From Sinorhizobium psoraleae (lineage in GTDB: Bacteria; Pseudomonadota; Alphaproteobacteria; Rhizobiales; Rhizobiaceae): a stretch of DNA of 64,000 nt. Numbering within the stretch: the stretch's first letter is position 1; every line of letters begins with the position of its first letter. Below, in pieces: positions 38,641 through 51,882 of the stretch. The notes below the pieces were generated by a model. It ran no database searches. It saw nothing but the letters and a program-made list of their open reading frames with translations, and had not been told where the DNA came from. The position numbers and the translations under genes are program-made. The stretch spans positions 1,108,577 to 1,172,576 of the forward strand of contig NZ_JABEKV010000001.1 of the NCBI RefSeq assembly GCF_013283645.1, read 5' to 3'.

Positions 38641-38658
38641 AAAATGGCGCACCCGACA
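38641..38658. repeat. attL of the integrated element
   Basis: AAAATGGCGCACCCGACA, identical over 18 bp to the sequence at 51802-51819 that ends the tRNA-Arg gene. The sequence continues differently on both sides, so the repeat is exactly bounded. Confidence 0.9.
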
Positions 38659-38721
38659 TCCGCCACGTTGATCGTGTAGCTTTTTATTTTCAAATAGTTA
38701 GCTTGCGTGAGTGCTGCATTT

Positions 38722-38745
38722 TGTGCAGCAAAATGTGCAGCAAAT
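38722..38745 (+). repeat. Tandem 12-bp repeats near attL, probable integrase arm sites
   Basis: Two head-to-tail copies of TGTGCAGCAAAA/T (38722-38733 and 38734-38745), with an inverted GTGCTGCA just before. The same 12-bp pair occurs near the other end at 51694-51717. Repeats shared by both ends and lying within 120 bp of the att cores are what arm-type integrase sites look like. Confidence 0.65.
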
Positions 38746-38880
38746 TTTCTGCGCCCTTCCACAATTCCGAAACGAGACGCGCCGCCCCGGAGGACGACCG
38801 GAGCGGCGCTGAAACGCAGCCGTGCGTAGGACTATTTGCCCGGGAATCCCGGATTCAGCAACTTCAGAAAGGAACCAAAG

Positions 38881-40986
38881 GTGCGGTACTCTGATACCAC
38901 GCATTTCTTTGATGAGCAAGACGATTTGGTCGGTTCGCCGACCTTGGACCGGCCGATCCGCATGACACATTTCCCGACCATGGCCGCGACGAAGAAGAAG
39001 GATATGCGCTTGTCGCTCCGCCAGCTTGCCGCGCTGATCGAACGGACGGAAGCCGACGACAAGTCGAAGCTGCCGTGGTTCAAGATGGCCGTCTTCGGCA
39101 ACGATCGCGCCGCCTCGCCGTCGGGCCATTCCTTCCGCAGCAACGGCAATGTCGTCGCCGTGAGCGGTATTGAAGCGGATTATGACGGCGAAGAGATCAT
39201 GCCCGAAGACGCCCGCGACATGCTGGCCGAAGCAGGCATTGTGGCGGCCGTCTACACGACGCCTTCGCATTCGCCCGACGCGCCGCGTTGGCGCGTGTTC
39301 GCTCCCTTCAGCGAAGAGCTTCCGCCGGACGAGCGCGAACGTCACATGGCACGCCTCAACGGTATCTTCGGCGGGGCGCTCGACGACGCGTCCTTCACCT
39401 TGTCGCAGAGCTACTACGGCGGCAACGTGACCGGCCGTCCGAAGGTGCGGACCTATCTCGTGGATGGGCGGCATGTGGATACCGCTTCCGATTTAGACGC
39501 GACGGCGAAGTGGAAGCGCGGCCGCGAGAAGGGGGCGGCCAATGACAACGGCTTCGACGAGGCCGCCTATCTCGATGCCATCGCGACCGGCGAGTCCTAT
39601 CATCCGGCGGCCATCGCCTTGGCTGGAAAATGGGCCACCGCTGGCGTGTCCTATATCGAGGCCATGAAGCGGCTCAGGGCGGCTTTCGACCGCGTGCCCG
39701 AAGAGGGCCGGGACTCGCGCTGGAAAGAGCGCGTTGCGTCCCTGCCGTCGATCCTCAACCATGTCTACGGCAAACAGGTCGAAGAGGACATCGCGGAAGA
39801 GAAGCGCCGCGAAGAAGCTTTTGACGAAATCCCGACTGCCGAAGAACAGGCGGAAATCGACGCCGACATTGAAGAGCTTGTCGGCGGCAATGCGAAGACC
39901 GAAACCGACGGGCTGACCTTCCTGAAGCCGTCCGAATGCGAGGCCAGCGACGCCCGCCGCTATGTGATCAAGGGCCTTGTCGCCGAAGGCGACGTGGCGT
40001 GCATCGTTGGCGCTCCGGGCGTCGGCAAGTCGCTTCTCGCGCCGCGCCTCGCCTATGCCGTTGCGCAAGGGCAAGACATCTTCGGGATGCGCGTTCGGCA
40101 AGGTGGCGTGCTCTATGTCGCGGCGGAAGACCAGCATGGAATGCGCGCCCGCGTGGCGGCGCTCCGGCGCGAACACGGCGAAGCCGACGACTTCGCTCTT
40201 GTTGCTGGCGTGTCCGATCTATTGAGCAAGGGCAGCGAGCACCTGAAGCGGCTGAAGGCGGCCGTAAAGGATCGGCGGCCGTCGCTGGTCATAATCGACA
40301 CGCTCGCCATGGCGTTCCCCTGCCTTGAAGAGAACAGCGCCGAAGGCATGGGCCGCGTTGTCGCCGTCGCCCGTTCCCTGACCCAATGGGGCGCGGCCGT
40401 GATCCTGATTCACCACGACACTAAGGACGGGCAGCAAGGACTCCCGCGCGGCCACTCGCTCTTGAATGGCGCGCTCGACGTGTCGCTGCACCTGTCGCGT
40501 GGCGAGGACGGCATTGTCCGGGCAAAGCTGACCAAGAACCGCAACGGTTCGACCGAACGGGATATTGCCTTCACCATCGGCACGCAAGCGCTGGGGCTCG
40601 ACGACGACGGCGACCCGATCACGGCGGCCGTTTGCCGTGAACTCGATCCCGGCAGCGCACCGGAGCGCAAGGACCACCTGTCGCCTAGCGAGAAATCCGC
40701 GTTCCGCATCCTCGCCGATCTGATCGAAGCCGAAGGCGTCGAGATCAACCGACGGCGGGGCATTCAGAAGGATAGGTGGCGAGACGTGTGTATCGCAAGC
40801 GGCGAATTGTCGGCGGCGGATGATCGCGACGGTCATAAACGCGCATTCAACCGTGCCCTGAAAAAGCTCCGGGACAAGCGCCGCATCGAGTTCATTGACG
40901 GCCACTACTGCATGGCCGTGATCGCTGGCGAGGATTCGTTCGCAACCGATAGTCACCACGGAGGCGATGATGATGACCTCGTGTAA
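38881..40986 (+). CDS. Primase/RepA-like replication ATPase of the element
   Basis: A 701-residue replication protein. GTG 38881 has AAAGGA 7 bases upstream and is preferred over a TTG 45 bases earlier. The N-terminal 250 residues look like a primase-type domain (VVAVSGIEADYDGEE, TTPSHSPDAPRWRVF, LSQSYYGG). A RepA/AAA_25 ATPase follows with Walker A GAPGVGKS (about 377-384), Walker B LVIIDTLA (about 470) and LIHHDTK; the C-terminus may hold a winged helix. It probably drives autonomous replication after excision, like the pri-rep genes of PICIs. It lies at the left end, transcribed inward. Confidence 0.82.
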   Translation: MRYSDTTHFFDEQDDLVGSPTLDRPIRMTHFPTMAATKKKDMRLSLRQLAALIERTEADDKSKLPWFKMAVFGNDRAASPSGHSFRSNGNVVAVSGIEADYDGEEIMPEDARDMLAEAGIVAAVYTTPSHSPDAPRWRVFAPFSEELPPDERERHMARLNGIFGGALDDASFTLSQSYYGGNVTGRPKVRTYLVDGRHVDTASDLDATAKWKRGREKGAANDNGFDEAAYLDAIATGESYHPAAIALAGKWATAGVSYIEAMKRLRAAFDRVPEEGRDSRWKERVASLPSILNHVYGKQVEEDIAEEKRREEAFDEIPTAEEQAEIDADIEELVGGNAKTETDGLTFLKPSECEASDARRYVIKGLVAEGDVACIVGAPGVGKSLLAPRLAYAVAQGQDIFGMRVRQGGVLYVAAEDQHGMRARVAALRREHGEADDFALVAGVSDLLSKGSEHLKRLKAAVKDRRPSLVIIDTLAMAFPCLEENSAEGMGRVVAVARSLTQWGAAVILIHHDTKDGQQGLPRGHSLLNGALDVSLHLSRGEDGIVRAKLTKNRNGSTERDIAFTIGTQALGLDDDGDPITAAVCRELDPGSAPERKDHLSPSEKSAFRILADLIEAEGVEINRRRGIQKDRWRDVCIASGELSAADDRDGHKRAFNRALKKLRDKRRIEFIDGHYCMAVIAGEDSFATDSHHGGDDDDLV

Positions 40987-40988
40987 CC

Positions 40989-41030
40989 GGGACAAAGCGG
41001 GACTGTCCCGGGACAGTCCCGCTTTGTCCC
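40989..41030. repeat. Perfect 42-bp palindrome after the replication gene
   Basis: Two perfect 21-bp arms (40989-41009 and 41010-41030) with no spacer, each made of GGGACA/GGGACT-type units. It begins two bases after the primase stop codon. It could be a terminator-like structure, an iteron-type origin or a packaging signal; it lacks a T-run. Confidence 0.85.
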
Positions 41031-41076
41031 ACCGGCATATCGCATCGGAATATCGCATCGGGCTACCGGGACGGAC

Positions 41077-41104
41077 CGGGACATATCCCTTTAGGGATGT
41101 CCCG
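41077..41104. repeat. Second GGGAC inverted repeat upstream of terS
   Basis: CGGGAC...GTCCCG outer arms and ATCCCT/AGGGAT inner arms, with a two-base bulge and two-base loop. It uses the same GGGAC unit as the 42-bp palindrome 47 bases to the left, and further GGGAC/GTCCC units lie between and beside them. Confidence 0.7.
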
Positions 41105-41263
41105 TTGTCCCGCCCTCCGATGCACTGGTTTGTCTTCATTCGAGGCGCGCACGCGCCCGCTAACAAAGGGGTCATGCCCGTTCGCAACCGGGTCCTTTGC
41201 GGCGGGCGGCCGTCGCGGGGGACGCGGAGCCCCGGCTTTTCGATCTGCGAGGAAAAATAGAAA

Positions 41264-41770
41264 ATGGACTCTACGATTTTATCGGACATCGAAGAGCTAG
41301 TCGGCGCTGTCAGTAAGCAACCTGCCGATAGGCTGGTCACGGCCGAAGAGCTTGCCGAATGGCTCGGCTTGACCCGCCGCCGAATCGACGAATTGACCGT
41401 GGCGGGCGTACTGACCCGCGCCGCCCGCGCCCGCTACGCGCTCCGGGCATCGATCCTCGCCTATTGCGCCGACCAGCGGTCCAAGACTTCCGGGCGTGGC
41501 CGTGGCGACCCCGCCTATACGGCGGCGAAGACCCGCGCGGCCGAAGCCCAAGCGGAGAAGCTGGAAACCGCGAATGCTGTCGCCCGCCGTGAACTTATCC
41601 CGGCCGCCGAAGTCGAGCGCGAATGGTCCACCATTCTCCGGGACGTGCGCGCCGCCATGCTCGCCCTGCCGTCGCGAATCCAGCAACGGCTTGGGCACCT
41701 GACGGCGCACGACGTGACGACCATCGATCGCGAAATCAGGGACACGCTTGAAGGAATCGGATCAGAATAG
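41264..41770 (+). CDS. Terminase small subunit (Nu1/gpNu1-like)
   Basis: A 168-residue protein with an N-terminal winged-helix DNA-binding region (RLVTAEELAEWLGLTRRRIDELTVAGVLTRAARARY) and a C-terminal helical part (AAEAQAEKLETANAVARRELIPAAEVEREW, then LPSRIQQRLG), as in lambda Nu1 and related TerS proteins. It recognises the packaging (cos) site and recruits TerL. AGGA lies about 11 bases upstream of the ATG. The nearby GGGAC palindromes are candidate recognition sites. Confidence 0.85.
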   Translation: MDSTILSDIEELVGAVSKQPADRLVTAEELAEWLGLTRRRIDELTVAGVLTRAARARYALRASILAYCADQRSKTSGRGRGDPAYTAAKTRAAEAQAEKLETANAVARRELIPAAEVEREWSTILRDVRAAMLALPSRIQQRLGHLTAHDVTTIDREIRDTLEGIGSE

Positions 41771-41803
41771 CAATCTGGGGCAGTCACTCGGAAGGGGGTA
41801 CAA

Positions 41804-42229
41804 ATGGCGGCAGGTAAGAAAACGGATAGCTCGCATAAGGATATCGATCCTCACATGCAGGAGATGCAGCATCTAATTACGCTGGGTTTAGCGGGTGGAA
41901 GCTTCGCTGGAATGTTGGCGGTGTGTTCCTTCGCGAATATTGATATGGCGAGGAAAATCGCATTAGCATTATTCTCTATATCGTTGCCAACGAGTATAAC
42001 TGTTTTCTTTTTGTCGCACAAATCTACCGAAGAGATTGTTCCAAAAAACAATCTTGTTGCAAACATATTAGGGTCAGCGTTTGCAATAAGTTTCTTGTCT
42101 ACGGTATTCGGTCTGGCGGCAATGTTGTTTTCTGTATCAGTGTATATCAGTGCGATTTCTGTTATTTCTAATTTAGGCATACCGATGCTTATATTGTTCA
42201 TGCTTTCTAAACTGGACTCAAAAGAATGA
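41804..42229 (+). CDS. Unknown four-helix membrane protein between terS and terL
   Basis: A 141-residue protein with four predicted membrane helices (about 23-46, 48-72, 85-112 and 116-137) and a hydrophilic N-terminus rich in K, D and H. I recognise no family. Its codons are markedly AT-rich (many ATA, TTA, AAT) unlike the flanking GC-rich packaging genes, indicating separate acquisition. AAGGGGG precedes the start. Its stop overlaps the terL start as ATGA, so it is translationally coupled to packaging. Its location suggests cargo (superinfection exclusion, defence or helper interference), but no function can be assigned. Confidence 0.75.
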   Translation: MAAGKKTDSSHKDIDPHMQEMQHLITLGLAGGSFAGMLAVCSFANIDMARKIALALFSISLPTSITVFFLSHKSTEEIVPKNNLVANILGSAFAISFLSTVFGLAAMLFSVSVYISAISVISNLGIPMLILFMLSKLDSKE

Positions 42230-43995
42230 ATTATTTTAGCACGGAACGGGTGCGTCGCCGTGCGCTCCGAGCGCTTATCCCACCGCCGCACCTTCGCCTG
42301 TCCGAATGGATCGAAACGCACATGCGCCTGCCGGAAGGCGTGTCGGCACTGCCCGGCCGCGTGAGCCTGTGGCCGTACCAGCGGGAAATCGCCGACGCCA
42401 TTTCCGACCCCGAGCTAGAGCGCGTGACGCTGGTCAAGCCCGTGCGTGTTGGCTTCACGACGCTGTTGACCGGGGCGCTCGCCTCCTACGTCGCCAATGA
42501 GCCGTCGCCGATCCTCGCTCTTCTGCCGACGGAAGCGGACTGCCGCGATTACGTCGTCAGCGACCTTGAACCGATCTTCGAGGCGACGCCCGCGCTCCGG
42601 GGCCTGTTATCGGCCGAAGCCGACGAAACCGGCCGCAACACGCTTCTGTCACGCCGCTTCGCGGGCGGGTCGCTGAAGATAGTCGCGGCGAAGTCGCCCC
42701 GCAATCTCCGGCGACACAACGTCCGCGTCCTGTTGATCGACGAAGCCGACGCCATGGAGCCGGGCGTTGAAGGTTCGCCAATCACGCTGGCGGAACGGCG
42801 CACGCTGTCTTTCGCAAATCGTAAGATCATCTTGGGCAGCACGCCGACAATCGAAGAGACCAGCAATGTGCTGCGGTCCTACGCCCGGTCGGATCGGCGT
42901 GTCTTTGAAGTCCCGTGCCCGGAATGCGGGCACTGGCACGAAATCACCTGGGCCGATATCCAGTGGCCGGAAGGCGCGCCGGAGCGGGCGCACTATGTTT
43001 GCCCGGAATGCGGTTCCATCGTCGAGGAACGGCACAAGGCGGCCATGGTTGAAAGCGGCCGCTGGCGGGCGACCGCGCCGCATGTGCGTGGCCATGCCGG
43101 ATTCCGACTCAACGCGCTTGTCTCGATGCTGGCGAACGCCTCTTGGGGCAAACTGGCGGCGGAGTTCGTCGAGGCGAGGAAGAGCCCGGACACGCTTCAG
43201 GTCTTCGTCAACACCATCCTCGCTCAAGGCTGGCGCGAAGCTGCCGAAGAGATTGACGAAGCCGCGCTTGCCGCCCGTGCAGAGCCGTTCGGGCTCGACG
43301 CCATTCCGCCGGACGTGCTGGTCATCACGGCGGGCGTGGACGTACAGCGCGATCGGTTGGAAATCGTCTTCCTTGGCTGGTCACGCGATGAAGTTTTCGT
43401 GCTGGGGCAAAGCGTCATCTATGGCGACCCGGCGAGCGATGACGTGTGGTCGGAACTCGACGACGCTTTGCGCACCGTTTGGAAGCATCCGAAGGGCGGA
43501 ATCCTGCGCGTGGACGCGGCGGGAGTGGACGCGGGCGATGGGGAGACCATGGACCGCGTGATCGCCTTCACACGGGCTCGTATGGCGAGGCGTACATACG
43601 CTTTGAAGGGTGCGACCGGGAACCGCCCGGCGATCCGGGCGAGCGACACGAAAGGGACGAAGCTTTTCATCGTCGGCGTGGACGGCCTGAAGGGGCAGCT
43701 TGCCAGCCGGTTGACGCGCGGCCGCACCGTCCGCTTCAGCGACCGTTTGGAAGCCCGGTTCTATGAGGAACTGGCGTCGGAACGCCTGATCATGCGCTAT
43801 GTGCGGGGCGCGCCTGTCCGCCTATGGGAACGAATTCCCGGCCGTCGGGCCGAGTCGCTCGACTGCACCATCTACGCGATGGCCGTGCGCGGACTGGTCA
43901 CGGCCAATCTGGATCGGCGGGAAGAGGAAGTCGCCAGCGCGACCATGCTCAAGAAAGCTCCGACCGTGATAAAGTCCGCGTGGCTGAATCGGTAG
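42226..43995 (+). CDS. Terminase large subunit (GpA family)
   Basis: A 589-residue lambda-type TerL. The ATPase part has a Walker A-like loop VKPVRVGFTT (70-79) and Walker B VLLIDEADAM (168-177). A zinc-ribbon-like insert has C230, C233, C258 and C261. The nuclease half begins at GVDVQRDRLEIVFLGW. It cleaves concatemers and pumps DNA into the head. The first codons are AT-rich because the start sits inside the preceding cargo gene. The last 23 codons are duplicated at 44220-44291. Confidence 0.93.
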   Translation: MNYFSTERVRRRALRALIPPPHLRLSEWIETHMRLPEGVSALPGRVSLWPYQREIADAISDPELERVTLVKPVRVGFTTLLTGALASYVANEPSPILALLPTEADCRDYVVSDLEPIFEATPALRGLLSAEADETGRNTLLSRRFAGGSLKIVAAKSPRNLRRHNVRVLLIDEADAMEPGVEGSPITLAERRTLSFANRKIILGSTPTIEETSNVLRSYARSDRRVFEVPCPECGHWHEITWADIQWPEGAPERAHYVCPECGSIVEERHKAAMVESGRWRATAPHVRGHAGFRLNALVSMLANASWGKLAAEFVEARKSPDTLQVFVNTILAQGWREAAEEIDEAALAARAEPFGLDAIPPDVLVITAGVDVQRDRLEIVFLGWSRDEVFVLGQSVIYGDPASDDVWSELDDALRTVWKHPKGGILRVDAAGVDAGDGETMDRVIAFTRARMARRTYALKGATGNRPAIRASDTKGTKLFIVGVDGLKGQLASRLTRGRTVRFSDRLEARFYEELASERLIMRYVRGAPVRLWERIPGRRAESLDCTIYAMAVRGLVTANLDRREEEVASATMLKKAPTVIKSAWLNR

Positions 43996-44002
43996 GGGCG
44001 GA

Positions 44003-44185
44003 ATGATGTTCAAGGTCGGGAATCAAGTGGTCCACAAGGACAACCCCAACAAGGGGCTTATCGTTGAGGCGGATGAAAAGGACGGGACCGTGCTTTGCCG
44101 CATTCCGGGCACCGGAAAAATTGTGATGCATAAGGCGGCCGATCTTCGGAAGGTCGATTCGGGGCCTATGCGCGTTGGGTTCTAA
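44003..44185 (+). CDS. Small 60-residue protein after terL
   Basis: Short, basic-acidic mixed protein (FKVGNQVVHKDNPNKGLIVE, then GTVLCRIPGTGKIVMHKAADL), starting 7 bases after terL with an in-frame second ATG at 44006. The pattern of short beta strands resembles small KOW/SH3-like folds, but I cannot assign a family. It lies between the real end of terL and a second copy of that end, so it may have arrived with the duplication. Confidence 0.6.
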   Translation: MMFKVGNQVVHKDNPNKGLIVEADEKDGTVLCRIPGTGKIVMHKAADLRKVDSGPMRVGF

Positions 44186-44219
44186 GCAGGGACGAGCTGC
44201 GCTACACCTTGAAGGGGGC

Positions 44220-44291
44220 GAGGAAGTCGCCAGCGCCACCATGCCCAAGAAAGCGCCTTCTGTCATAAGGTCCGCTTGGCTGAATCGTTGA
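44220..44291 (+). pseudogene. Duplicated terL 3'-end remnant
   Basis: The in-frame translation from 44220 to the TGA at 44289 reproduces the last 23 residues of TerL with three substitutions (L to P, T to S, K to R). By my count 60 of 72 bases match 43924-43995. No start or upstream terL sequence accompanies it. Its stop codon is directly followed by the 3' end of the minus-strand DUF3800 gene. Confidence 0.85.
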
Positions 44292-45290
44292 TCAGCCTTC
44301 GCCGTATTTCGGCGGCAGCATGTTTCTCCCGCCGGTCGAAAAATCAGATAGCACTTTGCCGTAGCTGACCTTCGGTGGCTTGCGATCTTCTGCGGCTAGG
44401 GAGATCAGCCGGATGTAGTGTTGACCCCAATGCACCATCAATTGCCGGACAGGTAGCCACCCCTGACGCCGGAAATTGCCCGCCAGCGAACGCCGCACGG
44501 CATTGACCAATATATCAGCCGCTTCAAGCCCATATTCAGCGTCCCAAGAAAAGCGAAAGTCTTCCTTCAAAAGCAGCTTTAGGTCGAATGCGTCCCCTTT
44601 TTCAGGGTCCTTCATAAATTGCTTTTTGTACTCGCCGGGCTCGGTTCGGAACCGTTCATGAGCCCTGTAATCGCCTCCTTCGGCGGCAGCGAAGGGTTCC
44701 CTGAATGACCTCGACTCGATCATCGGCAATATGACCGTTGACCACCAGTCTTCCCAAGCCGTCACCTTATCGCGATTCTTAGCATCGATTACCCAATGGT
44801 ACTCCCCAAGCTCTTTAGGACGCCGAAACGAGTAATATAGGTTCGCATGATAGATGGAATTGTATACAAGATCTGCCATCGCGCATGACTGTACATAAAG
44901 TTGTAGTGAAGTAGCTTCGAGTTGTTTTCTCAACCCCCAAACCGCATTGACGAGCGTCTCATGGTGTTCGTCCGTTAAATGCATTGTAATGTGTTCTTCT
45001 TGACCGGTCTTATGCCTTTTCACTTCATCTTCGGTGTGACAGGCGGAGTCGACCGCTACCACTTCAAATAGGCAATTTAGCTTGCGGAGGATAGCGACAA
45101 CCTCGCCAATATGCTCTTCACAGAGCAGACGCCCTTTCACTTCGCCTTTTTCTTGGGGAAGCTTGCGGCGCAAGCGACCATATAGCTTTTCGAAGCCCTT
45201 GAAGTTTTGATCTGGGATGATCAGCGCCCCGACGGCAGAAATATTGTTTTGTCCGCTGAATGTGCCGGACTCATCAATGAAGATTCGCAT
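44292..45290 (-). CDS. DUF3800 family protein (cargo)
   Basis: A 332-residue protein from ATG 45290, with GGGA upstream. The N-terminus MRIFIDESGTFSG and later DAEYGLEAADILVNAVRR carry the acidic residues typical of DUF3800, a family with a probable RNase H-like or nuclease-like fold that recurs in phage and defence islands. It reads against the packaging genes and is less GC-rich than they are. With the 76-residue gene upstream it forms a small leftward cassette. A defence or helper-interference role is likely but inferred from context. Confidence 0.82.
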   Translation of the reverse strand: MRIFIDESGTFSGQNNISAVGALIIPDQNFKGFEKLYGRLRRKLPQEKGEVKGRLLCEEHIGEVVAILRKLNCLFEVVAVDSACHTEDEVKRHKTGQEEHITMHLTDEHHETLVNAVWGLRKQLEATSLQLYVQSCAMADLVYNSIYHANLYYSFRRPKELGEYHWVIDAKNRDKVTAWEDWWSTVILPMIESRSFREPFAAAEGGDYRAHERFRTEPGEYKKQFMKDPEKGDAFDLKLLLKEDFRFSWDAEYGLEAADILVNAVRRSLAGNFRRQGWLPVRQLMVHWGQHYIRLISLAAEDRKPPKVSYGKVLSDFSTGGRNMLPPKYGEG

Positions 45291-45325
45291 ACTATCCCGC
45301 CCCGATTCGATCGGCTGGCAGTATA

Positions 45326-45556
45326 TCATTCCCGGAAGTTCCACTCCGCCCCTAGCGTGAGTTTACTTGCACTGTACCACGCCAGATCGGCGGGCATGTC
45401 GTATTGGATACGAAAGTCCCTGTAGCGCCGTTCCCATTGCCGTCGCACTTGCCGTGAAAGCCCTTCAGGCGGCTTCGTAAAGTCCGGCAGGTCTTCCGGC
45501 GCGACCGGGACAACCCGGCCGTCTGGCATCACGTCAAGCGCGAAAACTCTGTGCAT
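45326..45556 (-). CDS. Small protein upstream of the DUF3800 gene
   Basis: A 76-residue protein with AAGGA six bases before its ATG. Basic middle (LSRQVRRQWERRYRDFRIQYD) and no membrane segment or known motif. It ends 35 bases before the DUF3800 start, so the two are probably cotranscribed from the AT-rich region at 45557-45813, whose start carries an 8-bp stem (45576-45601). Function unknown. Confidence 0.65.
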   Translation of the reverse strand: MHRVFALDVMPDGRVVPVAPEDLPDFTKPPEGLSRQVRRQWERRYRDFRIQYDMPADLAWYSASKLTLGAEWNFRE

Positions 45557-45813
45557 TGCTCGTCCTTAGCAAAGAGGCCGGGGCAGTCGCCCACCCCGGC
45601 CCAGTATAAGGGAGCCTGACAGGGGACAACTCCCGCCGGGCAGACTGGAAATAAACCGACACAAAGTCTCAAGTCAAGTATAATTTCTTTAGTTCTTATG
45701 TTGTTCTGCATTGCCAACTGTTAGTTGCTTATGGCTACTGGTAGTAGCTTATTTACAATACTTTAGATTTCAGCAACTCTCCGACTCGATACAAGCCATT
45801 GGGAGTTCCTGAC
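45557..45813. promoter_or_regulatory. AT-rich divergent promoter region inside the element
   Basis: 257 bases between the leftward DUF3800 cassette and the rightward structural operon. The central 45650-45780 is strikingly AT-rich for this replicon (TATAATTT, TTATTTACAATACTTT), and a GGCCGGGG/CCCCGGCC stem lies at 45576-45601. It probably holds the promoters of both units; I could not assign individual -35/-10 boxes with confidence. Confidence 0.5.
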
Positions 45814-46401
45814 ATGCTCGACGAAAACAATCATGCGTTCGTTTCCAAGCCGATTCCGCGCAACCCCGGTTACTTTCTCACCATCGCGGACGTGGCGGAA
45901 ACCATCGCGGAGCCGGGCGAGGACAAGGTGAAGATGATCGCGGCCCTTCGGCAATTCGCTTCGCAGGGCTATCTGTGGGCACCGTTCTACGAAACCGAAT
46001 CACGCGGCGCTTACCTCTACGCCCCGGCGACCTGCATCGTCTGCGCGGTCCTTCTGCGCATGATCGAAATGGGCATTCGCGACAAGAACGCCTGCCATAT
46101 GGCCGCTAAGGCGCTCTACCAGTGGAATCCGAAGGACTTCAACGGCGACGCGCCCGACTACTCGCCCGGCGCGCTGGTCATCAAGCATTACGTGGAGGAC
46201 GTGTCCAACTGGACCTTGGAATTGTGGTCCCTTCGGCACGATAGCGGCAAGATCGTTCACGACGCTCGTATCTATAACCCCGCCGCAGGCGGCGGCCCGT
46301 CGCTGACCTATGACCTTTCGAAATTCGCGCAACGGGCAGTTCTCGCAATCGATCTTGGCGACGTGCTCGACCGGATGCATTCGCGCGTCCGGGTGAACTG
46401 A
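45814..46401 (+). CDS. Unknown protein with a MerR-like N-terminal region
   Basis: A 195-residue protein from ATG 45814, preceded by GGGAG at 8 bases. Residues about 17-100 resemble a winged helix of MerR style: FLTIADVAETIA, a turn, RQFASQGYL and later ILLRMIEMGI-like helices (actual CAVLLRMIEMGIRDKNACHMA). No structural-protein motif is seen. It is 2 bases upstream of the portal gene, the place where a regulator or head-assembly accessory could sit. It is the only candidate regulator in the element, but the assignment is weak. Confidence 0.6.
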   Translation: MLDENNHAFVSKPIPRNPGYFLTIADVAETIAEPGEDKVKMIAALRQFASQGYLWAPFYETESRGAYLYAPATCIVCAVLLRMIEMGIRDKNACHMAAKALYQWNPKDFNGDAPDYSPGALVIKHYVEDVSNWTLELWSLRHDSGKIVHDARIYNPAAGGGPSLTYDLSKFAQRAVLAIDLGDVLDRMHSRVRVN

Positions 46402-46403
46402 CC

Positions 46404-47777
46404 ATGCCCGTTCGGTTGCCCAATCCCTTCAATTTCTTCCGCCGCACGACTCGGCCGCAGCACGTCCGCCGGTTCGACGGCGCGGCGGGCGGCCGTCGCG
46501 GCTGGGCCATGGGCACCTTCGGCCGGATCAACCCGGAAGTGGCGGCCGCCGGGGCGAGCCTTCGCGGCCGTGCGCGCTACCTCGCCAACAACAATCCGTG
46601 GATTGCGAACGCCGTCGGAAACTGGACCGGCGCGCTTGTCGGCTCCGGCATCATGCCGACTTCCCAGCATCCCGACGCCGCCGCCCGGAAGGCGCTGTCG
46701 ACGCTCTTCAATACCTGGGCGGAAGAGTCGGACACCGACGCTCGCACGACCTTTTGGGGCCTTCAGGCGGACATCGCGCGGGGGCTGGTCGTGGATGGCG
46801 AAGCCTTCGTCCAGTTCCTCGATTCCGACGGCCTCCGCGTCCGGCTGATCCCGCCGGAATTGATCGACGAGTCCATGACGCGCGAATTAGGTAATGGCGG
46901 CGTGATCGTGCAGGGCGTCGAGTTCGACGCCGACGGCCGCCGCGTCGCCTATCACGTCTTGTCGTCGCGCCCCCACGACCAGTTCGCCACCTATGCGCCA
47001 CCCGTGCGGATCGACGCTTCCGAAATCTTGCACGTCATGAAGCCACTGGCGGCCGGGCAGGTCCGGGGCGTCTCTTGGCTTGCGCCGGTCATCCTGCCCG
47101 CCAGTGAGCTAGACCAGCTTCTCGACGCTCTGCTTGTCGGTGTGAAGGTGGCGGCCATGCACGCGGGCTTTCTGATCGATCAGAACGGCACGTCGGGCGA
47201 ACCGTTCGACGGCACGGGCGAGGGCGGCGTGTTGGAAGCCGGACTCGAGCCCGGCACGTTGCGCCGCCTGCCGACGGGCATGGACATCAAGTTTTCGACG
47301 CCCCAGCAGACGGCGGAAGTGGCCGCCTTCCTTCGGCTCAACCTTCAGCAGCTTGCCGCCGGGCTGGGCCTGCCGACGCATTTCGTGGACGGCGACTTGA
47401 CCGGGGCGAACTATTCAAGCCTTCGCGCCGGGCTTCTGCCTTTTCGCCAGCGCGTTGAGCAAATCCAATACGGCACCTTCGTTCCGCAGTTCCTCGCTCC
47501 CGTGTGGCGGCGCGTGATCAGCTATGCAGTGCTATCCGCCGAACTCGACGCGGGCGACTTCGGCCGCGAATGGCTGGCGGTCGAATGGTTGCCGCCGAAG
47601 CCGCTTCAGGTCGATCCGCTGAAGGACACTCAAGCGACTGTCGCCGAAATCGAGGCTGGGCTTACCAGCCGCCGCAAGGCGGTGGCCGAACGCGGCTGGT
47701 CTATCGAACAGCTGGACGAAGAAATAGCCGCCGACACGCGGCCGATGCAGAAGGAGTCCACCAATGCCGAAAGCTAG
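46404..47777 (+). CDS. Phage portal protein (lambda gpB family)
   Basis: A 457-residue portal with the family blocks ARYLANNNPWIANAVGNWTGALVGSGI, VDGEAFVQF, LRVRLIPPELID, YHVLSSRP and QQLAAGLGLPTHFVDGDLTGANYSSLRAG. It forms the dodecameric vertex through which TerL packages DNA and to which the connector and tail attach. Overlaps the protease-capsid gene by 14 bases. Intact and of normal length. Confidence 0.93.
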   Translation: MPVRLPNPFNFFRRTTRPQHVRRFDGAAGGRRGWAMGTFGRINPEVAAAGASLRGRARYLANNNPWIANAVGNWTGALVGSGIMPTSQHPDAAARKALSTLFNTWAEESDTDARTTFWGLQADIARGLVVDGEAFVQFLDSDGLRVRLIPPELIDESMTRELGNGGVIVQGVEFDADGRRVAYHVLSSRPHDQFATYAPPVRIDASEILHVMKPLAAGQVRGVSWLAPVILPASELDQLLDALLVGVKVAAMHAGFLIDQNGTSGEPFDGTGEGGVLEAGLEPGTLRRLPTGMDIKFSTPQQTAEVAAFLRLNLQQLAAGLGLPTHFVDGDLTGANYSSLRAGLLPFRQRVEQIQYGTFVPQFLAPVWRRVISYAVLSAELDAGDFGREWLAVEWLPPKPLQVDPLKDTQATVAEIEAGLTSRRKAVAERGWSIEQLDEEIAADTRPMQKESTNAES

Positions 47778-49569
47778 GAAGCGGGAGGTATCGCCGGAAT
47801 CGCAAGACGCGATGACCCGCCGCGCGGTCATCTCGCCCGAGTCGTTCGACGAAGCCGCGTTGACCGTGGAAGCGACCATCTCGACGTTTTCCGATGTCCA
47901 GCGCCGCGACCCGCGCGGGGCCTATGTCGAACGGCTGGACCCGGCCGGGCTCGACACGTCGCGGCTGATCGGCGCGCCCGTTCTCGACGGCCATCGGCAG
48001 GCCAGCGCCCGCGACACCATTGGCGTCGTGACCGCCTTCCGCACTGAAGGCAACGCGCTGATTGCCACCATTCGTTTGCTTCAGTCCGATGACGTGAAGC
48101 CGATCGTCGAGCGCATCCGGCAGGGCGTCATTCGGGGCGTTTCTGTCGGCTACCGCGTCCAACGCTGGCTCGATTCTCTCGAAAACAAGGTCCGCGTCCG
48201 CACGGCGGCGGCGTGGTCGATCTTTGAAGTTTCCGCCGTGCCGGTCCCGGCCGATCCGGGCGCAACCTTTCGGAGCGAAACCATGGAAGACGAAGTGATC
48301 GAAACCCCGAACGAAGAAACCCCGGCCGCGACCCGTGCAGCCATCCGCACTATCGCCCGCGCGGCAGGCATGACGGCGGAACAAGCGGACGACATGATCG
48401 ACCGCGACCTGTCCGTCACGGAAGCCCGTGCGGAAGCATTCGAGGCGATGCAGGCACGGACTCGCAACACGCCGCGCATTCGCGTCGTGAGCCCGTTGAG
48501 CGAAGACCCGGCCATGATCCGTACGCGGCGCGAAGAGGCGCTTTACGCTCGCGTGAGCGGCACCCCGCCGACCGACGAAGCTCGCCCCTTCATAGGCGAC
48601 ACGCTTCGCGACCACGCCCGCGCGTTGGTCGAAGCGGCGGGCATCTCGACGCGCGGAATGGACCCGGACGCGCTCTTCCGGGCGGCGATGCACACGACCA
48701 GCGACTTCCCCCAGCTTCTGACGGGCGTCGGCCGCCGGACTTTGATGGCCGCCTATCACGTCGCAGGGTCGCCGCTGAAGACCGTGCTGGCGCGGCAGAC
48801 GACGCTTCCCGACTTCCGGGCAGCGTCCAAGCTGAAGCTGTCGGACATCGGCCTTCTGGAAAAGGTCTCGGAGTCGGGTGAAATCAAGAGCACGACCCGG
48901 GGCGAGGCGACCGAGTCCTACGCACTCGATACCTACGGAACCATTTTCGCACTGTCGCGCAAGGCGCTGATCAATGACGATCTTGGCGCATTCCGGGATT
49001 GGGGCGCGACCGCCGGCCGCATGGCGGCCGAAACAGAAAACAACCTGCTCTTCGCGCTTTTCCGCCAGTCGAGCGGGGCAGGGCCGGTCATGGGCGAGGA
49101 CAACAAGCGCCTCTTCCACGCGGATCACGGCAACCTTGCCGGTTCGGGCACGGCGCTGGACGAAACAAACCTGTCCGCTGCCCGCCTCGCCATGCGTGGC
49201 ATGAAGGCGCTGGACGGCAAGACGCCGATCAACGCCGCCCCGAAATATCTGGTCGTCGGGCCGCAGCTTGAGACCAGCGCCGAAAAGTTGCTGGCGGCGA
49301 TCTATGCGGCCACGGTTGCCACGGCGAATCCGTTCACGGGGAAGCTGGAGTTGCTGGTCGAACCGCGCATCACAGACAAGTCGTGGTACGTCTTCGCCGA
49401 TCCGGCCGTCCTGCCAGTGCTTGAATATGCTTACCTGTCCAGCGCCCAAGGTCCGCAGATGGCGAGCCGCGAAGGCTGGGATGTGCTGGGGCAGGAGTTC
49501 CGCGTCGTGCTGGACTTTGGTTGTGGCGCAACCGACTTCCGGGGCGCTTACCGCAATCCGGGTCTCTGA
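47764..49569 (+). CDS. Prohead protease/major capsid protein fusion
   Basis: A 601-residue fusion. The N-terminal about 180 residues form an HK97-type prohead protease (AVISPESFDEAALTVEATIS, VLDGHRQ with the active-site His, RGVSVGYRVQ with the nucleophile Ser). A helical linker (about 185-260, VIETPNEETPAATRAAIRTI) may be the scaffold/delta domain. The C-terminal about 330 residues match the Mu gpT-like major capsid family (TSDFPQLLTGVGRRTLMAAY, ALSRKALINDDLGAF, LFHADHGNLAGSG). The single-chain fusion is a known variant in small phages. Confidence 0.9.
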   Translation: MPKARKREVSPESQDAMTRRAVISPESFDEAALTVEATISTFSDVQRRDPRGAYVERLDPAGLDTSRLIGAPVLDGHRQASARDTIGVVTAFRTEGNALIATIRLLQSDDVKPIVERIRQGVIRGVSVGYRVQRWLDSLENKVRVRTAAAWSIFEVSAVPVPADPGATFRSETMEDEVIETPNEETPAATRAAIRTIARAAGMTAEQADDMIDRDLSVTEARAEAFEAMQARTRNTPRIRVVSPLSEDPAMIRTRREEALYARVSGTPPTDEARPFIGDTLRDHARALVEAAGISTRGMDPDALFRAAMHTTSDFPQLLTGVGRRTLMAAYHVAGSPLKTVLARQTTLPDFRAASKLKLSDIGLLEKVSESGEIKSTTRGEATESYALDTYGTIFALSRKALINDDLGAFRDWGATAGRMAAETENNLLFALFRQSSGAGPVMGEDNKRLFHADHGNLAGSGTALDETNLSAARLAMRGMKALDGKTPINAAPKYLVVGPQLETSAEKLLAAIYAATVATANPFTGKLELLVEPRITDKSWYVFADPAVLPVLEYAYLSSAQGPQMASREGWDVLGQEFRVVLDFGCGATDFRGAYRNPGL

Positions 49570-49574
49570 TCGTC

Positions 49575-49793
49575 ATGGCCGCATCGCTGCAACAGCTTCA
49601 GGCTTGGCGGGACGCCCTCTTTGCAGCCCGGCTTCAGGGCGTGCGGGAGTTCCGCGATCAGAACGGCGAAGCCGTGTCCTACAAGTCCGACGCCGAAATG
49701 GCGCGGGCGCTCGCGGCCGCCGACGCGGCGATTGCGGCGGCGCAGACCAAGCCCGTCAACACCATCCTCTTCAAGACTTCGAAAGGAATCTGA
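49575..49793 (+). CDS. Head-tail connector protein (gpW-like)
   Basis: A 72-residue protein, five bases after the capsid gene. QQLQAWRDALFAARLQGVREF, AVSYKSDAEMARALAAADAAI and the short basic tail match the gpW-type head completion family that closes the portal vertex and offers the tail docking site. Its presence in an element without tails is what a tail-stealing satellite would need. Confidence 0.82.
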   Translation: MAASLQQLQAWRDALFAARLQGVREFRDQNGEAVSYKSDAEMARALAAADAAIAAAQTKPVNTILFKTSKGI

Positions 49794-49795
49794 CC

Positions 49796-50125
49796 ATGAA
49801 GAACTTTGTGCAGAAGGGCGAGAATCTGACCCTTCCCGCGCCCTACGCCGTGTCGAGCGGCGACGGCGTATTGAAGGGCAGCATCTTCGGTGTGGCCGCT
49901 GGCGACGCCGAGTCGGGCGCTGAAGTCGATATCGTGACCGTCGGCGTCTTCACGCTGCCCAAGGTTTCAACGGACGTGATGGCCGTCGGCGATCCGATCT
50001 ATTGGGACAATACGGCGAAGCTGGTCACGACGACGGCGACCGGCAACACCAAGATTGGCGTGTCCCTCGCCACGGCCGTCAATCCTTCCGGCACGACCGA
50101 CGTGCGCCTCAACGGGGCGTTCTGA
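49796..50125 (+). CDS. DUF2190 capsid decoration/cement protein
   Basis: A 109-residue protein starting at ATG 49796 (TGACC ATG after the gpW stop). VQKGENLTLPAPYAVSSGDGVLKGSIFGVAAGDA and YWDNTAKLVTTTATGNTKIGVSLATAV are typical of DUF2190, a predicted head decoration or cement protein found beside Mu-gpT-like capsids. Beta-rich, no signal. Confidence 0.85.
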   Translation: MKNFVQKGENLTLPAPYAVSSGDGVLKGSIFGVAAGDAESGAEVDIVTVGVFTLPKVSTDVMAVGDPIYWDNTAKLVTTTATGNTKIGVSLATAVNPSGTTDVRLNGAF

Positions 50126-50205
50126 CCCATCCCGCAGGCGAGCGTGATCCTGACCGCTCCGCTCGCTCGCGTTCTTCAACGGGACCACGCCCTTGAGGGC
50201 GTTCC

Positions 50206-50379
50206 ATGGAAAAGGACGAATTGGTCCGCTTGCGGGCGGCCGTCGCTAAACTCGTCGTCGAAAATCCGATCTATGCGCCGATCTTCGAACGACTCGAAAT
50301 CGAAATTGCCAGCTTAGAAGCCTCCGACCCTATAGCACGGGCGCGGGCGATAGTAGCTGGTCAGAAGGCAATCGCCTGA
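50206..50379 (+). CDS. 57-residue helical protein at the end of the structural operon
   Basis: ATG 50206 is preceded by GAGGG and opens a frame to the TGA at 50377-50379. The product is helical and charged (MEKDELVRLRAAVAKLVVEN, IFERLEIEIASLEASD, IARARAIVAGQ), a coiled-coil-like profile. Its last 19 bases overlap the convergent integrase 3' end. No family recognised; it could be a last head or connector gene. Confidence 0.55.
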   Translation: MEKDELVRLRAAVAKLVVENPIYAPIFERLEIEIASLEASDPIARARAIVAGQKAIA

Positions 50380-51638
50380 AGGATGTCCCGCTTGTGTTCG
50401 AGAGTTGCGCCCGCCCCATACCGTTCCCGGTCAAGCCGATGGCCGAAGATGTCACGGCGGATTCGTTCGTCGACTCCGGCTGCAAGCATCCGGTCTTCAA
50501 ACGAATGGCGCAAGCTGTAGAGCACATGGTCGGGCGTTTCGAGAAGCCCGTTTTCCCGCATGAATTTGTTCACCGTGGCGCTAAGGCTGGCGCTGGTCTC
50601 CTGATAGCGCTGGAATCCCTTCGGGCACTGCCGGAAGGCTTCGAGGCTGACGCCAGTGAGCGGGATGACGCGCTTCGACTGGTCAGTCTTCAGTTGCCGC
50701 CCGACCGGCTCAATCGAGATATGCGGGATATCATGTTCGAGTCGAATGTGCTCTGGCAGGAGCCCGGCCGCCTCGCTTGGGCGATAGCCCGTGTTGACCA
50801 TGCCGAGCAGGATGCAGCGCGCTTCTGTATTGAGTCCATCGAGCGCGCCGGGCGCGAGCAACTTGGTCTTGATCCATTCCGTAGAGAAAGGGGGGCGCTC
50901 GCGCTTGTGCTTCTTTCCGTCCTTGAAGGACAGATTGCCGACGGGCAGCACCAGCCCGAGCCGCTTCATCTTGTTGACGGTCTTCAGCGTGTCGGCGACA
51001 TGGATCAGGTCTTTGTTCGCGCTATTCGGGGCCAGTCCTTCCGACGCCACCCGGTCAACCCACCAGTCGCGGAAGTCGAGCATGTCGTCGGCCGTGATCT
51101 CGGCAATGTTCTTGTTGCCGACGACCTCAACGAAGTTGCGAATTGCCTTCATGCGTGGATTCTTCCATCGACGAAGTTGGTCTTCGCTTTTGCCGAGCGT
51201 CCGGTCCTTCGCCAGCGTCCAGAACAATTCAAGCGCCCGCTCGACCGTGATCGGCGGTTCCTTCGCCCCGCCAAGGACGGCCGCAGCTTCTATCCGATCC
51301 GGCTCACCGTCGGGCCGTACGGCGGCGCGAACCCGTTCAAGGAACTCTTCGCGCGGCAACTTGGCGACACGATCTGCCGTGAGGTAGCGGAAGCCCCGGA
51401 CTTGGGCGAGTTCCCGCGCCGCCTCGAAACGGCGTTCGGCGTCGTCGCTGTCGCCCGCAAGTCGGGCTTCCCACGCCTCAACCATGTTCTGCCATGCCGT
51501 CGGGGCCTTCTGCCGTGCAACGGACTCGGAATCAGTGTGCAGGCTGATCCACACGACTTTGCGGGACTCGATTGCCTCGTAGCGTTTCGGAACGCGCTTG
51601 ATCAGGTGGAAGGTCTTGTTGCGGCGCTTGATGTTCAT
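50361..51638 (-). CDS. int: Tyrosine-recombinase integrase
   Basis: A 425-residue integrase of the DUF6538-N-terminal type (NKTFHLIKRVPKRYEAIESRK at the start). A SAM-like core-binding domain spans about 130-240. The catalytic domain has R in NTGYRPSEAAGL, LYSLRHSFEDRM (box II, with Tyr at the usual first His position, a variant I know from related rhizobial integrases), GH in DIFGHRLDRE and the probable nucleophile in RERYGAG. It lies at the right end next to attR and the tRNA, transcribed inward; it should catalyse integration and excision at the tRNA 3' end. Confidence 0.92.
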   Translation of the reverse strand: MNIKRRNKTFHLIKRVPKRYEAIESRKVVWISLHTDSESVARQKAPTAWQNMVEAWEARLAGDSDDAERRFEAARELAQVRGFRYLTADRVAKLPREEFLERVRAAVRPDGEPDRIEAAAVLGGAKEPPITVERALELFWTLAKDRTLGKSEDQLRRWKNPRMKAIRNFVEVVGNKNIAEITADDMLDFRDWWVDRVASEGLAPNSANKDLIHVADTLKTVNKMKRLGLVLPVGNLSFKDGKKHKRERPPFSTEWIKTKLLAPGALDGLNTEARCILLGMVNTGYRPSEAAGLLPEHIRLEHDIPHISIEPVGRQLKTDQSKRVIPLTGVSLEAFRQCPKGFQRYQETSASLSATVNKFMRENGLLETPDHVLYSLRHSFEDRMLAAGVDERIRRDIFGHRLDRERYGAGATLEHKRDILQAIAF

Positions 51639-51693
51639 GGCGGAACTCCCTTCGGTTCCAAAACCATGCCTGACGCTTTGATGTATAGCAATA

Positions 51694-51717
51694 TGTGCAG
51701 CAAAAGGTGCAGCAGAA
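51694..51717 (+). repeat. Tandem 12-bp repeats near attR, probable integrase arm sites
   Basis: TGTGCAGCAAAA (51694-51705) followed by GGTGCAGCAGAA (51706-51717), matching the pair at 38722-38745 near the other end. They lie between the integrase start and the att core. Confidence 0.65.
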
Positions 51718-51801
51718 TCGCAACATGCGGCGTCGGATCCCGTGCAAAATCTCTGGAAAACGTAATTAAATCAAGCGCTTGCGGGACAATTATTGGGGAG
51801 G

Positions 51802-51819
51802 AAAATGGCGCACCCGACA
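51802..51819. repeat. attR of the integrated element
   Basis: 18-bp copy of the att core, overlapping the CCA end and T-stem of tRNA-Arg(CCG). It leaves the tRNA gene intact after integration. Confidence 0.9.
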
Positions 51820-51882
51820 GGATTCGAACCTGTGACCTTTGGAATCGGAATCCAACACTCTATCCAGCTGAGCTACGGGTGC
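51806..51882 (-). tRNA. tRNA-Arg (anticodon CCG)
   Basis: A 77-base tRNA including an encoded CCA. Acceptor stem GCACCCG/CGGGTGC, anticodon stem TTGGA/TCCAA around the loop TTCCGAT (anticodon CCG), and T-loop TTCGAAT with stem ACAGG/CCTGT. It reads CGG codons. In S. meliloti I recall this as an essential single-copy tRNA located on pSymB. It serves as the attachment site of the adjacent element. Confidence 0.95.

Follow-up and report, generated by a model that had tools for sequence, protein, structure and literature searches.

A probable head-building, tail-borrowing phage satellite of Sinorhizobium psoraleae and its alphaproteobacterial relatives

We analysed a 64,000-nucleotide window of the Sinorhizobium psoraleae genome, in which positions 38,641 to 51,819 hold an integrated element with phage head genes. 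We read the element as a phage satellite that is functional, or was until recently, and that would make and fill its own small head. It would belong to an alphaproteobacterial lineage of its own, convergent with the capsid-forming phage-inducible chromosomal islands (cf-PICIs), and we put the probability of this reading at about 0.82. The wider family of tailless, head-building elements is apparently widespread and undescribed, and its members probably borrow tails from true phages. Our literature search, a weak negative, returned no account of such elements in Alphaproteobacteria. New here are a shortened linker in the capsid fusion, a gpW gene behind the capsid gene, a cos-like block, a MerR-type candidate regulator and a cargo slot between terL and portal.

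The element lies between two copies of an 18 bp repeat, AAAATGGCGCACCCGACA, one at 38641-38658 and one at 51802-51819 (13,161 bp apart); the window has no other exact copy. The perfect att repeats that an earlier note on this DNA had placed around 13.2 kb are thus exact copies. The right-hand repeat overlaps the 3' terminus of tRNA-Arg(CCG) (51806-51882, minus strand), the only tRNA gene that ARAGORN found in the window. Three same-genus genomes, G300, G138 and G316 (loci L146, L147 and L148, respectively), carry the empty site. In their alignments, the left flank matches to 38658, the tRNA side resumes at 51801-51806 and a single repeat copy is present, with 1, 2 and 1 mismatches, respectively. 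TerL of the element was found at >36% identity in one of 33 same-genus genomes, the window's own. Hence, the element is a sporadic insert. Gene transfer agents (GTAs) are common in Alphaproteobacteria, and a domesticated GTA-like head cluster might be proposed. The sporadic occurrence, together with dedicated att sites, an integrase and a replication gene, makes that very improbable.

Between the repeats we found the element's own capsid, protease, portal and both terminase genes, besides an integrase. Integrase, primase, terS, terL, portal, protease-capsid fusion, gpW-like and decoration genes, called apparently intact in the earlier note, all matched families, and none of their reading frames contains a stop codon. 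The att sites, the candidate cos site and the head, packaging, replication and integration genes are as follows.

38641-38658 (no strand): attL, 18 bp; exact match to 51802-51819, empty site in L146-L148
38836-40986 (+): primase/helicase (AAA_25), replication protein, start codon uncertain; PF13481 2.4e-34, phrog_906 3e-42
41190-41240 (+): candidate cos site, GGGTCCTTTGCGG followed by a G+C-rich block; conserved upstream of terS
41264-41770 (+): terS; phrog_57 1.9e-24
42226-43995 (+): terL, gpA type; GpA ATPase PF05876 7.9e-90, nuclease PF20454 2.4e-79
46404-47777 (+): portal, lambda type; Phage_portal_2 PF05136 6.8e-84
47764-49569 (+): fused prohead protease and major capsid protein; PF25209, PF04586, phrog_4523 3.3e-169
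49575-49793 (+): gpW-like head-completion adaptor (Ad1); phrog_2545 3e-10
49796-50125 (+): capsid cement/decoration protein (DUF2190 type); PF09956 3.8e-27 within a longer open reading frame (ORF), 49268-50122; phrog_122
50361-51638 (-): tyrosine integrase; PF00589 2.7e-8, phrog_1 1.2e-29
51802-51819 (no strand): attR, 18 bp, inside the tRNA-Arg(CCG) 3' end; exact repeat, ARAGORN tRNA

In the capsid fusion, Pfam joins Phage_capsid_4 (4.2e-50) to Peptidase_S78 (9.5e-8); PF10124 also matched. Consistent with the earlier note, tail and lysis families were absent from the Pfam and PHROG matches of the scanned window ORFs. Among head-tail adapter and closure genes only the gpW-like adaptor matched, and these scans recognised no further connector gene in the element. 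The gene set falls short of a complete particle, while replication and integration genes are kept, as in phage satellites. One could suppose a complete small virus with tail proteins too divergent to recognise, and ORFs of 57, 60, 76 and 141 amino acids do lack a family. However, these are too small for a tape measure or hub, and the sole sizeable conserved unknown models as a winged-helix protein. With little space in 13 kb beyond head genes and cargo, we give such a virus hardly any credence.

The genes themselves appear to be maintained. Ratios of nonsynonymous to synonymous substitution (dN/dS) against up to five relatives (L062, L063, L161, L064 and L065) were 0.11-0.12 for terL, 0.11-0.15 for portal, 0.09-0.26 for capsid and 0.07-0.19 for integrase. 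Values reached 0.61 for the cement gene, in one pair, and 0.47 for the regulator gene. The ratios indicate that the head genes are under purifying selection. Walker-type and nuclease motifs are largely retained over 73 aligned TerL rows, with the D and Q of the nuclease motif present in 73 of 73. In the protease part of the fusion, H77, S127 and E155 are invariant in 24 satellite capsids. These residues, which we take to be the catalytic triad, fit an active S78 protease. The earlier note had named two findings that would undo its proposal: disabling mutations in terL, portal or capsid, and close relatives with tail and lysis genes at this site. The three genes are open and conserved, and the close relatives examined showed no tail match. 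The primase is only 24-25% identical in three of the four relatives compared. Hence, replication genes have been exchanged between relatives.

The Sinorhizobium copy does not stand alone; many loci of its kind were found. Capsid scans supplied 28 loci in genomes of named organisms and, out of 123 in IMG/VR, the 80 best; 15 additional stretches, some identical to earlier loci, came from same-family genomes. Loci were mapped with profiles built in this analysis. The named hosts, which span several alphaproteobacterial orders, include Lutimaribacter, Asticcacaulis, Thioclava, Cypionkella and Methylobacterium. On plasmids, too, these head genes occur in an unchanged order, in Paracoccus and, without the cargo gap, in Azospirillum lipoferum, as far as the incomplete gene tables of the two stretches show. 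A search of a plasmid collection with the element gave no close DNA match. On the basis of layout, tail matches or position in the tree, 26 loci were classed as phage-like and kept apart. This left 53 loci, window included, with TerL, portal, capsid and either gpW or cement. In 46 of these (39 after known duplicates are dropped, window included), terL, portal and capsid are in order on one strand; the other seven have another gene order. The recurrent arrangement is primase, terS, terL, variable genes, regulator, portal, capsid, gpW, cement and integrase. Some relatives have a second kind of integrase, in the opposite direction. Repeats linked to a tRNA were found for 8 of the 11 loci tested, window included, and for none of L039, L040 and L162. 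Seven intact copies measure 11,678, 12,269, 12,471, 12,506, 12,607, 12,865 and 13,161 bp from att to att.

Tail matches were almost absent from these loci too. Searching with phmmer and the tail proteins of five annotated phages gave no match in 52 of the 53. We also scanned 144 non-core ORFs from 30 satellite-type loci, having dropped 17 of the 161 gathered because they lay outside the element or over the integrase. No tail family was present among the best 25 of 60 PHROG families matched, which were mostly integrases, primases and regulators, or among 25 of the 26 Pfam families. By comparison, in 13 phage-like loci we scanned 86 of 89 ORFs chosen downstream of the capsid gene; 22 tail or neck families were among the best 25 of 178 PHROG families.

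The head genes differ from those of phage-like relatives in two respects. First, the linker joining protease to capsid is shorter. Its median length is 130 residues in rows of the window's own kind (type A; n = 62, range 113-143), 149 in a second kind described below (type B; n = 11, 135-164) and 136 in unassigned rows (n = 7, 120-164). In phage-like rows it is 191 (n = 29, 168-262). Satellite and phage-like ranges do not overlap, while the capsid domain is unchanged in length and the protease part little different. In HK97-type heads, the region between protease and capsid serves as a scaffold. Because the linker at this position is ~60 residues shorter than in phage-like relatives, a smaller shell in the satellites is a fair inference. 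If a lambda-sized head were reduced to T=3, simple scaling (our own estimate) would give it a capacity of 13 kb. Second, gpW follows the capsid gene in 45 of the 46 loci outside the phage-like set. The sole exception, L127, falls among phages in a quick tree of 109 rows. In all three phage-like loci where gpW was found, it lies between terL and portal, and a gpW-type gene is labelled at that place in the annotated phages RcKemmy and 1.055.O.

Phages offer only distant matches. Against a collection of 50,697 records, identity was at most 35.1% for capsid (among 30 of 111 records listed), 35.7% for TerL (25 of 764) and 42.7% for portal (10 of 194); by identity band, all matching records fall below 60%. 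For a careful tree of the capsid domain, we chose 61 of the 109 rows and counted L050, L053, L055, L132, L135 and L139, which an automatic rule had placed in type A, as phage by hand. The window falls in a 22-row type-A clade without a tailed phage (support 100/100). This clade lies within a 28-row satellite group that includes six type-B rows (97/94). The quick tree had a 79-row group without an annotated tailed phage (SH-aLRT 95), comprising 62 type-A, 11 type-B and five unassigned rows and one with a tape measure. A single satellite clade for all types, present in the quick tree, was lost in the careful one.

These observations bear on whether the element is a defective prophage whose tail and lysis genes were deleted. 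Its head genes do descend from tailed-phage genes, and decay is visible in the relatives L034, L102 and L106. Loss by deletion does not readily explain why 38 other non-duplicate loci have the same order and no tail match, why sizes are similar or why gpW has moved in 45 of 46 loci. It is also at odds with the 22-row clade and with purifying selection on head genes. We judge a defective prophage improbable.

A non-coding block upstream of terS is shared by the window and 10 close relatives, including those with an unrelated primase gene. The block starts with GGGTCCTTTGCGG; the right end of lambda has GGGTCCTTTCCGG at the corresponding place, which we take to be the location of cosQ. This lambda-end-like block is likely to be a cos site. 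A degenerate version of the pattern occurs in 12 IMG/VR contigs; one, from which L080 comes, is 30.8 kb long and the others are 10.5-14.0 kb. Ten of the 12 are satellite loci that the capsid scan had already gathered; the other two are L196 and L199. We also considered the scan as a route to a helper sharing the cos site, and it pointed to no helper.

The remaining features of the element are these.

38722-38742 (+): two TGTGCAGCA copies, candidate integrase arm sites; from the copy count in the window
40989-41030 (no strand): inverted repeat of ~42 bp 3' of the primase gene, terminator or origin; self-complementary match
41804-42229 (+): 141-aa protein with a membrane-bound look (by eye), cargo; without Pfam or PHROG family match
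44003-44185 (+): 60-aa ORF, cargo; homologues directly behind terL in L085 and L088
44215-44287 (+): second, incomplete terL 3' end; 85% identity with 43919-43991, matches the terL ends of relatives
44292-45344 (-): DUF3800 protein, cargo; PF12686 7.2e-4, slightly below the family cut-off, homologue in L066
45326-45556 (-): 76-aa ORF, oriented away from the regulator; L161 and L081 have homologues, L076 a weaker one
45799-46401 (+): 200-aa MerR-like winged-helix candidate regulator, ATG at 45814 also possible; alignment and predicted model
50206-50379 (+): 57-aa ORF; dN/dS 0.06-0.23 against four relatives
51694-51714 (+): right-end candidate integrase arm sites, one exact and one variant

The sequence TGTGCAGCA occurs five times in the whole window (0.27 expected), three times at the element ends and twice far away. 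A related stretch recurs at both ends of L161 and of L085. The copies beside the element ends are probably integrase arm sites. The inverted repeat at 40989-41030 is nearly perfect and directly follows the primase stop; L062 has a similar repeat.

The 200-residue protein encoded directly upstream of portal is a candidate MerR-type regulator. Its family alignment has 23 rows, of which the low-scoring ones were picked by position. A winged-helix fold is predicted (pLDDT 86.3), and the best Foldseek match in the PDB is the MerR-type CvkR (7xn2; E 4.6e-3, probability 1.00, TM 0.46). A viral fold library gave no convincing match. With this protein in place, the earlier statement that no repressor is visible is probably wrong. 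Families AlpA and Stl were not found in Pfam and PHROG scans of window ORFs, and TerS has a weak excisionase-type match (phrog_66, 3.1e-4).

The content of the gap between terL and portal varies between loci. Judged by the genes it holds, the gap is a cargo slot, with defence-type genes in several relatives. By single-protein scans, it encodes a Pycsar cyclase and its membrane effector in L064, a PIN-domain protein matching candidate defence family PDC-S34 in L062, an McrB-like N-terminal domain in L033 and an AbiJ domain in L083. On a Paracoccus plasmid it holds a cytosine methyltransferase, an HNH endonuclease and a second methyltransferase. Among mapped loci, the 141-aa ORF is present only in the window and L061. 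The duplicated terL end at 44215-44287 is likely to be a scar of cargo exchange. The idea that DUF3800 is a known defence gene was dropped, as PADLOC gave no match.

Several results weigh against our interpretation. L034 is cut to 7,438 bp between its repeats and has no terL match, and portal or capsid is split into two ORFs in L102, L106, L108, L110 and L130. L038 gave a tape-measure match, though a weak one (45 bits); its portal is truncated and its genes are in a rearranged order. On its own, the phmmer tail screen is insensitive, having found matches in 14 of 26 phage-like loci, one of which (L055) matched only gpW. In the careful tree, seven other satellite rows fall outside the 28-row group, and the data require two label changes. 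Since that tree splits the satellites, we limit the claim to the 22-row type-A clade and the 28-row group. Of 52 satellite loci, 12 have the cos-like motif (the L038 copy is doubtful), as does one of 19 phage-like loci. Hence, the block marks the window's subgroup. For the regulator, the Foldseek E-value is modest, with no match at 0.001, and a profile search of PDB sequences with the family gave none. Of 20 slot proteins given to PADLOC (19 from relatives and the window's DUF3800 protein), 15 had no match and five did, two of them weakly.

A working scheme for the satellite can be proposed. Growth or induction of a helper phage would lead the MerR-like regulator to release the element. The integrase would excise it and the primase/helicase copy it. 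TerS and TerL would then cleave the DNA at the cos-like site and package it into heads, which would be small owing to the ~60-residue shorter linker, a would-be built-in scaffold. The gpW protein would close the portal, and the helper would supply everything from the head-tail joining protein onwards (neck, tail and lysis). Genes in the terL-portal slot would be exchangeable and some may act against phages, which may benefit the host.

In strategy, general gene set and size class, the element resembles published cf-PICIs. The cf-PICI reports describe integrated islands, on average 14 kb long (PMC10803314), with their own terminases, portal, protease, capsid and connectors, and tails taken from a helper (PMC10803314, PMC10690885, PMC11389934, PMC13230959). 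Examples such as EcCIEDL933 share with the element a similar size, integration, own head and packaging genes and lack of a tail. The head genes are different. In the 900 published sequences used in PMC13230959, cf-PICI capsids belong to Pfam PF05065. The element's capsid is a fused PF25209 protein with no PF05065 match at E up to 0.01. Its TerL is of the gpA type, its portal (PF05136) of the lambda type, and a lambda-end-like block precedes terS. An HNH family, expected in the packaging module of cf-PICIs, was absent from the Pfam and PHROG scans of window ORFs. The MerR-like regulator, the terL-portal cargo slot and an alphaproteobacterial host are further differences. Because it would work like a cf-PICI with head genes of other families, we consider the element a separate, convergent variant. 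That it is an ordinary member of the published group, as the earlier note had proposed, has little probability; what stands of that proposal is a tailless, head-building, tRNA-integrated and satellite-like element.

Eleven related loci (L041, L057, L113, L165-L168, L170 and L172-L174) form type B. They have the capsid fusion, and none gave a portal or TerL match. Their hosts are Agrobacterium cavarae, Notoacmeibacter marinus and eight same-family genomes; one is an IMG/VR contig. A weak TerS-like match was found in 4 of 11 and an ORF of the integrase cluster in 7 of 11. All encode a protein of 605-933 residues from one family, whose member in L174 matches tape-measure families (phrog_28, 3.4e-34). 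The five tested lie between tRNA-linked repeats 10.7-12.0 kb apart. We lean slightly towards a broader view, in which capsid-forming satellites radiated independently in Alphaproteobacteria from phages with gpA terminases and fused capsids. Linker shortening would have fixed a small, perhaps T=3, shell, and dependence on the helper would be graded. Type A would make the whole head and take a tail. Type B would keep the capsid fusion and its own tape measure (some with a TerS-like gene), take portal, TerL and the rest, and might set both head and tail size.

A possible tail donor for the element lies in the same genome. Locus L186 (contig C1, 1588000-1607900) is a compact HK97-type head-tail cluster with a likely tape measure of 881 aa, and is the only other head-tail cluster that searches of this genome returned. 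Relatives of its capsid were found in four of 33 same-genus genomes (its own included; one at 49% identity). We considered L186 as a GTA tail source; given the patchy capsid relatives and prophage-like gene order, a prophage is likelier.

Other systems resemble the family in part. According to PMC13230959, cf-PISP TG54 and PISP TG93 of Vibrio crassostreae are likewise tailless with their own capsid genes, and TG93 has a MerR-like regulator. In contrast, they are episomal and lack an integrase (TG54 has another tyrosine recombinase), and their capsids are PF05065 and PF03864. The Streptomyces satellites MulchRoom and MiniFlayer, compared by description, have packaging and capsid genes and depend on helpers. 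They differ in virulent helpers, direct terminal repeats and no obvious replicase (PMC10690885). Satellites of E. coli with capsid, decoration and tape-measure genes and no terminase, also compared by description, resemble type B in gene choice; hosts and a predicted baseplate component are different (PMC10448857). The kind of element represented by type B thus has a precedent. Rhodobacter phage RcKemmy and Paracoccus phage Pben1 share the head gene families and fused protease-capsid. However, they have full tails, a small gene at the gpW position between terL and portal and a longer linker, with 33-35% capsid identity.

If our reading is correct, a large bacterial class evolved its own version of this strategy, a self-made head with a borrowed tail, and did so from head genes other than those of cf-PICIs. 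It would offer a second system for how a head finds a foreign tail, where the break would fall right after gpW. It would also be a second system for the setting of capsid size, via a natural, group-wide shortening of the linker by ~60 residues. The slot would give a window on the travel of defence genes among rhizobia, rhodobacters and caulobacters. Tailless loci resemble broken prophages and are thus easily overlooked.

Some further loci deserve mention. L204, plasmid pNSM5TCa of Paracoccus sp. SMMA_5_TC, combines the family's head genes with slot genes of restriction-modification type. The Salipiger mucosus locus (L034/L082) is a truncated copy of 7.4 kb with repeats at tRNA-Ser and no terL match. 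L109, a 27 kb IMG/VR locus, has two capsid-fusion genes, the first in a type-A-like order and the second preceded by an 803-aa ORF. Finally, the IMG/VR loci L118-L125, L128 and L131 make up another group. Several are ordered portal, capsid, cement, terS and terL, and some have an ORF of 575-690 aa before portal.

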